Assembly (NCBI GenBank): GCA_018401695.1
Contig: JAGYKD010000001.1
Location: forward strand, 1,242,016 to 1,306,015
Origin: Flavobacteriales bacterium
GTDB taxonomy: Bacteria; Bacteroidota; Bacteroidia; CAIKAF01
Direction: 5' to 3'
DNA length: 64,000 nt
Shown here one piece after another: positions 39,205 through 40,452 of the stretch. The notes below the pieces were generated by a model. That model was not told where the DNA came from. It did no database searches and was given only the letters and a program-made list of their open reading frames with translations. Each line of letters starts with the position of its first letter. Positions within the stretch are counted from its first letter, which is position 1. The translations under genes and the position numbers were made by a program.

Positions 39205-39750
39205 GTGGACTATCTTTTGGAAGCATTAACGAAACAACTGATTAGCGTCTTTGGGAGCATTTTAAGCCCGGTGTCTTATAAAAAGGGCGCAGTGGTTCAG
39301 GAGGGCAACAGCTTAGGCGATAGCCTGTTTATTGTGCAGTCGGGTCTACTTCGGTCCTATTATTTTCAGAATGGTACAGACATTACTGCCCATTTTGCGG
39401 TTCCCTTTGGGATTGTGGGCGCGGTAGACAGCATTTTGAAGCAACAACGGAGCATATATTGGATAGAGGCGCTTCAGTGCAGTGAGGTGTTGCAATTGTA
39501 TTATGGCCAAATGGAAGCCTTTTTGGAGGATAATCCCGAGTATGAGCGTGTGGCACGGCAAGTGTTGCAAATGTTGTATTTAGACTTGGTGGAGCGTTTT
39601 GAGGGGTTGATGTTTTTGAATGCTCAGGAGCGCTATATGCATTTCTGTCGACGCTACCCGGACCTTATTCAAAACGCAAGTTTGGGACATATTGCTTCCT
39701 ATTTGGGCATGACCCAGGAAACCCTTAGTCGCGTGCGGAGATCCAAATGA
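39205..39750 (+). CDS. Crp/Fnr-family transcriptional regulator
   Basis: The 181-residue protein has an N-terminal cyclic-nucleotide-binding-like domain (KKGAVVQEGNSLGDSLFIVQSGLLRSYY; cited parts EGNSLGDSLFIVQSG and AHFAVPFGIVGAVDS). The C-terminal winged helix has recognition helix SYLGMTQETLSRVRR. It lacks the four cysteines of oxygen-sensing FNR, so its signal is not oxygen through an Fe-S cluster; the ligand is unknown. The best start is GTG at 39205. A perfect FNR-type palindrome 5 bp after its stop codon precedes the next gene, a likely target. Confidence 0.85.
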   Translation: MDYLLEALTKQLISVFGSILSPVSYKKGAVVQEGNSLGDSLFIVQSGLLRSYYFQNGTDITAHFAVPFGIVGAVDSILKQQRSIYWIEALQCSEVLQLYYGQMEAFLEDNPEYERVARQVLQMLYLDLVERFEGLMFLNAQERYMHFCRRYPDLIQNASLGHIASYLGMTQETLSRVRRSK

Positions 39751-39754
39751 TTTT

Positions 39755-39768
39755 TTGATGTAGATCAA
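39755..39768. promoter_or_regulatory. FNR/Crp-type operator
   Basis: TTGATGTAGATCAA matches the consensus TTGAT-N4-ATCAA perfectly on both half sites. Its centre (39761.5) is about 40 bp upstream of the start point predicted from the TAnnTTTG box at 39791-39798, the position of class II activators. Confidence 0.75.
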
Positions 39769-39790
39769 AGGGAATGCCCTGTGGTCAGGG

Positions 39791-39798
39791 TAATTTTG
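39791..39798 (+). promoter_or_regulatory. TAnnTTTG -7 box downstream of the FNR-type operator
   Basis: TAATTTTG is an exact match, 23 nt before ATG 39822. No -33 TTG at the usual spacing exists; the FNR-type site occupies the upstream position, as expected for an activated promoter. Confidence 0.6.
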
Positions 39799-39821
39799 GG
39801 GTCAATCAAAATCTAAAGCCC

Positions 39822-40208
39822 ATGTATATTTCGGTAAAGAAGTTACTTTTATTGGATGGGCTAGGAGCTGTCCTAACCGCCGCCATGTGTCTTGTGGTGG
39901 CTCGATTCGAAGCCTATTTTGGCATGCCTAAGCTGCCCATGGTGGTGCTTTCGTGCATAGCCTTTGGATTTGCCTTGTTTTCGATTTGCAATTATTTGTT
40001 CCTTAAGAGGGGGTTTAAAAGACCGTTGAGGAGAATTATGTTTGCCAACATTGCTTATTGCATGGCCACCGGTTTTCTTATCCTTTGGTATGTTGAACGC
40101 CTCACGGCTTTGGGCCTGGCGTATTTTTTTGGGGAGATTCTGGTGGTTTCTTTTGTGGTGCGTTTGGAATACATAAACACCAGAGACGCCGGTGGGGTGG
40201 GCGACTAA
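39822..40208 (+). CDS. Small four-helix integral membrane protein, likely Crp/Fnr target
   Basis: The 128-residue protein starts at ATG 39822 (MYISVKKLLLLDGLGAVL). The upstream in-frame ATG at 39774 overlaps the promoter region and is rejected. Four hydrophobic helices are seen (about 6-28, 36-58, 67-88, 92-114). Features include LLDGLGAVLTA at the start of helix one and YFFGEILVVSFVVRLEY in helix four, a Glu-containing helix. Similar small proteins occur in Bacteroidota without assigned function. Its promoter carries an FNR-type operator next to the regulator gene. Confidence 0.7.
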   Translation: MYISVKKLLLLDGLGAVLTAAMCLVVARFEAYFGMPKLPMVVLSCIAFGFALFSICNYLFLKRGFKRPLRRIMFANIAYCMATGFLILWYVERLTALGLAYFFGEILVVSFVVRLEYINTRDAGGVGD

Positions 40209-40217
40209 AAACCCTTG

Positions 40218-40452
40218 GAGACCGTTGACGCGTTGTGTTTTCAAGTTTTTAACCCTGACCAAGGCGTCAGGGACCTAGTTCCTGACCGAAGCGTCAGGAG
40301 ACAATTAAGGCACGGCCAAATTGAAAGTCTCCTGACGCTTCGGTCAGCATCTTTGAGTCAGGATAAAATACTAGAGATTTGGCCCTAAGGTAAACCCTAA
40401 CGCTGCGGTCAGGACAGGGTCGCCGCCAGAATAGCCATGCGTCAACGGTCTC
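40218..40452. repeat. Non-coding element with 14-bp terminal inverted repeats
   Basis: The left end GAGACCGTTGACGC (40218-40231) and right end GCGTCAACGGTCTC (40439-40452) are perfect inverted repeats. Inside, CTGACCGAAGCGTCAGGAGAC (about 40282-40302) and its complement (about 40326-40346) form a second inverted pair, and GCTGCGGTCAGGAC recurs as a related word. The right ~50 bp recur, diverged, at 58088-58136. It lies between two convergent genes and encodes no convincing protein. The layout is that of a MITE-like or structured intergenic element; no target-site duplication is obvious. Confidence 0.65.

Follow-up and report, generated by a model that had tools for sequence, protein, structure and literature searches.

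FNR, as known from E. coli and A. fischeri, resembles the regulator described here in its fold, in its box (TTGATNNNNATCAA) and in a recognition helix carrying Glu, Ser and Arg, which we take to be the FNR recognition residues. At class II promoters the operator is by convention centered at -41.5, and the class II spacing of FNR is similar to that of the promoter analyzed below. Among proteins of solved structure, the closest sequence was PDB 3dn7 (E 3.3e-14, residues 26-179), an uncharacterized cyclic-nucleotide-binding regulatory protein that presumably comes from Cytophaga hutchinsonii. CprK of Desulfitobacterium, which reads the (de)halobox TTAAT-N4-ATTAA, is likewise a Crp/Fnr-type activator; it has a ligand and an extended C-terminus that contacts DNA, neither of which is in evidence for the window regulator. 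Val-192 of CprK is the equivalent of FNR Glu-209, and T replaces C at that base pair (TTAAT versus TTGAT; PMC2610375). Another Crp/Fnr protein of Bacteroidota, CrpPg of Porphyromonas gingivalis (PDB 2gau), is described as a cAMP-independent global regulator, assigned by its authors to the Crp family (PMC12040651).

The window (the whole 64,000-nt stretch of Flavobacteriales DNA that was analyzed) encodes a Crp/Fnr-superfamily regulator of 181 aa at 39205-39750 on the plus strand, with a GTG start and the stop codon TGA at 39748-39750. Its cNMP-binding-type sensor domain was recovered by Pfam (PF00027, 35.7 bits against a cut-off of 27.5), and the matches to HTH_Crp_2 (15.8 bits, cut-off 27) and Crp (13.0 bits, cut-off 21) both stayed below threshold in a chain that ends early, just past the recognition helix (MTQETLSRVRRSK). 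The Crp-type helix-turn-helix was recognized by its fold, the alignment with FNR, FixK2 and NtcA continuing to residue 181. The AlphaFold2 model was confident (pLDDT 95.2) and matched A. fischeri FNR best (Z 18.7, rmsd 2.8, 177 aligned residues), with which FixK2 and NtcA are tied when matches less than one Z unit apart are counted as equal; CrpPg reached Z 16.7. The Glu (E172), Ser and Arg residues of the recognition helix are in place, and an FNR-type box adjoins the gene. Measured against CprK, the window combines Glu with TTGAT, and not Val with TTAAT. In contrast to FNR, the chain is shorter, ending at the recognition helix, and lacks the cysteine cluster. The first-pass annotation, made from the letters of the window, had called the regulator cysteine-less, which is correct for the N-terminal cluster but overlooks C92 and C148. 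Neither of these two is common to the four relatives that precede the same membrane gene (see below), and thiol sensing via conserved cysteines was dropped because no cysteine is shared by the window and these four proteins. The same annotation had proposed a signal other than Fe-S oxygen sensing, for which the missing cluster is the single line of support; the effector may be a ligand or a redox signal that does not involve an Fe-S cluster. Conservation of the Glu and Arg of the cAMP phosphate-binding cassette, as in CRP, was not apparent by eye in the alignment.

Directly behind this gene lies an FNR-type palindrome whose core, TTGATGTAGATCAA, occupies 39755-39768, where it had first been placed, although it starts 4 nt and not 5 nt downstream of the regulator stop. 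The palindrome is extensible by one pair to TTTGATGTAGATCAAA (39754-39769), and its center lies 11 nt from the stop. Unlike the operators of FNR, it sits at the 3' end of the regulator's own gene. On the plus strand, TAATTTTG (39791-39798), which we take to be a Bacteroidota-type -7 element, follows 29 bp from the operator center, a class II distance, as originally suggested, that is fixed across relatives. The -33 element of such promoters reads TTTG or TTG, and none was seen by eye at the usual place, in agreement with the initial reading. If the operator center sits at -41.5, transcription would start near 39803 on the plus strand, a position predicted from geometry only. Between the operator and the -7 element, folding predicts a plus-strand hairpin (TGCCCTG-TGGT-CAGGGTA, 39775-39792), which may serve the regulator transcript as a weak terminator; a terminator scan called it on the minus strand only. 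Searches of Rfam near the operator returned only sub-threshold matches, which fall at an unrelated inverted repeat.

The putative target, at 39822-40208 on the plus strand, encodes a membrane protein of 128 aa. Its likely start is the ATG at 39822, where its relatives begin in the alignment; a start at 39774 was dropped, as it disagrees with these relatives and lies upstream of the predicted transcription start. The predicted model (pLDDT 81.8) shows four long helices, as the first-pass annotation had described. No match above the cut-off was found in Pfam, nor any near the cut-off in NCBIfam. In structure comparison all hits were generic four-helix bundles with Z scores of 11.9 or less, and values up to about 13 can reflect a common arrangement. 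A DoxX identity was rejected, since no DoxX match was listed by Pfam at E values up to 1. The neighbors of solo copies of the gene were mixed and gave no functional lead in 15 loci. Beyond the target, positions 40218-40452 form a composite of inverted repeats whose unit, CTGACCGAAGCGTCAGG, occurs in 86 copies in the genome when up to one mismatch is allowed (control, 0), which is the behavior of a REP-like dispersed imperfect palindrome.

The same gene pair was found in four loci of Myxococcales or Deltaproteobacteria (L042-L045), where a regulator 48-49% identical to that of the window is followed by a membrane homologue with 42-44% identity. The boxes between the two genes read TTGATTTGCGTCAA, TTGACGCGCGTCAA, TTGACGCACGTCAA or TTGACGGGCGTCAA, and TACGGT or TACCGT was seen by eye 29 bp from the box center, at the position expected for a -10 element. 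The window regulator groups with these four in a single clade (support 100/99), whose sister comprises regulators that precede DoxX-like genes. In all five loci with a regulator directly before the membrane gene the palindrome is kept, and loss of the box where both genes stay, which would have spoken against the pair, was thus observed in none. On the other hand, TTGAN6TCAA was absent within 300 nt upstream in all 37 other membrane-gene rows, 36 of which extend 150 nt or more upstream of the gene, a count that includes fragments and repeats (L041 equals L149; L143 and L150, as well as L144 and L151, overlap). These boxless rows include the paralogue of the membrane gene from the window's own genome (L041). 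Judged by this distribution, the site goes with the regulator and not with the membrane gene. In one further locus (L128) the order is reversed: the membrane gene comes first, a regulator relative follows, and a box lies behind that regulator. Of 60 relatives surveyed, the other 59 did not show the pair. Nor was it found elsewhere in a survey of 395 genomes from the phylum, in which the membrane gene is present in 24, counting this one. Within Bacteroidota, as covered by both surveys, the exact pair was seen in this genome only. The regulator-membrane gene pair has likely been transferred horizontally.

A pattern scan of 84,980 species genomes yielded 76 loci with a gene for a regulator relative, many of which were retrieved through the recognition-helix peptide, and the set is therefore biased to one box type. 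Within these, TTGAYNNNNRTCAA was found up to 300 nt after the regulator stop in 60 of 76 loci, compared with 1.3 expected from its rate in the remaining sequence of the same loci, and up to 100 nt after the stop in 51. When the window, the pattern-scan set and the best-per-genome set were joined, 75 of 105 loci carried TTGAN6TCAA up to 900 nt after the stop. TAnnTTTG was located within 72 bp of the box center in 25 of these 75, at an offset of 29 bp in 23 (the window included) and of 30 bp in the other two, which is class II geometry in every case. Many of the remaining boxed loci have nnnnTTTG at the same place by eye, for example GAnnTTTG. In the pattern-scan loci, 37/75 regulator stops were followed by a palindrome and, at the fixed offset from it, TTTG, versus 2/404 other ORF stops, and a TTGAY box lay up to 60 nt downstream of 48/75 versus 1/404. 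Upstream of the regulator start (up to 200 nt), a box was present in just 1 of 72 relatives, and autoregulation was dropped for this reason. In the best-per-genome set (28 of 29 relatives, L014 being left out for want of a stop), only two had a TTGAY box after the stop, or three if one that overlaps the stop (L015), a type missed by this count, is included; the others had different boxes or none. Such overlap was also seen in L042 (3534-3547), L100, L170, L177 and L178, where the box begins 4 nt before the stop codon ends and the TGA forms part of the TTGA half-site. Three cyanobacterial relatives carry two tandem boxes behind the regulator, with starts 28 bp apart (L110:3524-3565, L112:3517-3558 and L113:1213-1254).

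A wider set was assembled by adding regulators from genome searches that used no short helix peptides, with 80 further places taken roughly in list order and some left out. This gave 213 usable loci of 215 (L014 and L116 were dropped), five of them without a called helix, and 199 after near-copies, defined as rows sharing more than 80% of 72 nt, had been merged. The combination of a palindrome downstream of the stop and TTTG at the expected offset was present in 76 of the 199 loci and absent in 123. The two neighboring offsets gave 5 and 11 loci, and all others averaged 4.0 (maximum 9). When all five pairs were required, 31 loci remained at the expected offset, with 1 and 2 at its neighbors and 0.61 on average elsewhere (maximum 3). 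Counting any palindrome among the 213 loci, 22 loci had TAnnTTTG at offset 29 and two had it at 30, compared with one to four loci at 15 other offsets. The most common stop-to-center distance, found in 19 of 82 called boxes of the 213 loci, was the 11 nt of the window.

The letters of the half-sites varied with the recognition helix across the 199 non-redundant loci, Glu going with TTGA and Val with TTAA or TTTA. Specifically, of 59 geometry-called boxes behind a Glu helix, 56 had G as the third letter of each half-site, versus 4 of 19 behind others (Fisher p 6e-10, a value that overstates independence because the rows are still partly kin). All 12 boxes behind a Val helix had A or T at this base in both halves, as in L187 (TTTAACAT/ATGTAAAA). 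Three Glu boxes deviate: the Arg is missing in L007 and L023, and L112 looks like a miscalled box. Four rows carry G in both halves without having Glu (L021, L025, L167 and L186), and none is of the Val type. This apparent natural Glu/Val switch agrees with the published FNR/CprK result (PMC2610375), the Val-192 rule of CprK fitting the Val-type relatives of the window regulator. Since the half-site letters track the recognition helix, the window box is very probably bound by the adjacent regulator.

The same genome encodes a second regulator, FNR-like and with an N-terminal CxxC (G000:C13:256344-257039; L120, L284), which could bind the core of the window box. As the main reader of that box it would place the membrane gene in an oxygen or redox regulon, leaving the neighboring regulator incidental. 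Its recognition-helix Glu and Arg are in place by eye, and its own 3' site, TGATTTTAATCA, has the TGAT-N4-ATCA core in common with the window box. We regard this account as improbable, because the box is tied to the neighboring regulator gene across phyla, its letters track the helix of that regulator, and relatives of the membrane gene that stand apart from the regulator have no box. The site of the FNR-like regulator is centered 30 nt after its stop, with TAGCTTTG 29 bp further and what is apparently another Crp/Fnr-type gene next, so that another clade shows the same 3' layout. When this regulator was taken together with its relatives (20 rows), a palindrome of fitting geometry lay no more than about 180 nt from the stop in 10 rows; some of these palindromes are weak or distant, and two (L293 and L311) are apparently the same place.

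With the neighboring regulator as the probable reader of the box, its mode of action is suggested by the promoter. At the class II position, the operator stands in for the -33 element, and activation is therefore likelier than repression, in so far as both binding and its effect can be read from the DNA. A site overlapping the -33 position would also suit a repressor that covers this region of the membrane gene promoter, yet no -33 element was seen there, and the conserved 29-bp class II spacing to the -7 element would be needless for a repressor, which makes repression quite unlikely. That the palindrome is part of an RNA hairpin or terminator behind the regulator gene is highly improbable: the region folds better than shuffles (z -2.4 for 39745-39800 and -3.6 for the palindrome alone, 39751-39772) and a second, GC-rich hairpin follows at 39775-39792, but the T-run stands before and not after the palindrome, the arm letters track a DNA recognition helix at a fixed spacing from the -7 element, and the stretch of the second hairpin shows no conservation in the family consensus.

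We are thus fairly confident in a class II activator that has a single target in this genome and whose operator sits where its own gene ends, on the 3' side. A dimer of the regulator would bind TTTGATGTAGATCAAA directly behind its gene and act as a class II activator, overlapping the place of the missing -33 element. The promoter so activated, with TAATTTTG as its -7 element, would drive the four-helix membrane gene. Regulator, operator, promoter and target would form a compact cassette inherited, and probably transferred, as one. The site described by the first-pass annotation is confirmed, with the small corrections given above, and the compact regulator-target pair it put forward is supported by the box kept in 5/5 loci, the fixed class II geometry and the covariation of helix and half-site.

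The reading of a single target derives from the genome as a whole (2.99 Mb, 19 contigs), where the exact TTGATGTAGATCAA-type pattern was found at 12 places versus 2 for a reversed control pattern; with up to one mismatch, there were 7 matches in the window versus 2.7 expected. TTGAN6TCAA followed by TAnnTTTG at 20-24 nt was detected at two places (control, 0), the second of which, TTGACCAGGCTCAA, falls within an open frame of 533 residues. TTGAYNNNNRTCAA followed by NNNNTTTG at 20-24 nt was detected at three (control, 0), and the two outside the window lie within open frames of 323 and 310 residues. The sites outside the window differ in spacing or are less symmetric. The 22-nt spacing between TTGAYNNNNRTCAA and NNNNTTTG was unique to the window site, and a global FNR regulon of the same geometry in this genome was dropped on these grounds, a result that refers to sites of this exact geometry. 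Whereas FNR governs a global regulon, this genome has one site of this geometry, and in comparison with CrpPg, described as a global regulator (PMC12040651), the window regulator reads as local and one-target. In 12 genomes picked for having many such regulators, nine contained a total of 22 class II TTGA sites, of which nine lay up to 8 nt from a regulator stop, three upstream of a regulator, and ten without a regulator within 1.5 kb. Because of these last two groups, one-site behavior holds for the window genome and not everywhere. We also observed a divergent pair of class II TTGA sites without such a regulator within 1.5 kb in G142:C15:22905-23013 (L274) and G365:C21:30642-30750 (L275), perhaps belonging to a wider FNR-type regulon.

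The genes behind the regulators differ by clade. On a tree of 89 rows, 28 of them without a target label, TolC-HlyD export genes accounted for 44 rows and the four-helix membrane gene for five, followed by DoxX-like (4), YiaA-like (4), metallo-hydrolase-like (2) and DsbA-like (2) genes, all names being assigned by eye from sequence. One DoxX-like protein behind a sister regulator scored 21.2 bits, under the DoxX cut-off of 23.6. These six target types require five changes on the tree, which is the minimum; the YiaA-like group taken on its own requires two. What the first-pass annotation missed is this family-wide arrangement, of which the window appears as one case of a regulator-attached operator architecture. 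We found no description of such an architecture among the open-access papers covered by our literature search.

We consider it reasonably probable that in a large, Bacteroidota-centered Crp/Fnr branch the cognate operator is fixed to the 3' end of the gene for its regulator and keeps a constant distance to the next promoter, and that the unit spreads whole while helix and half-site change together. For local regulators whose signals are unknown, binding sites are difficult to predict. In the present case the site is legible beside the gene, with promoter spacing fixed to the base, and operator, target and mode therefore become testable for many uncharacterized Crp/Fnr proteins. The natural Glu/Val switch (TTGA versus TTAA or TTTA) would provide naturally occurring data from which to study the recognition code. 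If the arrangement holds true, genomes would be a ready library of matched protein-operator pairs, in which specificity may be read behind the stop codon.
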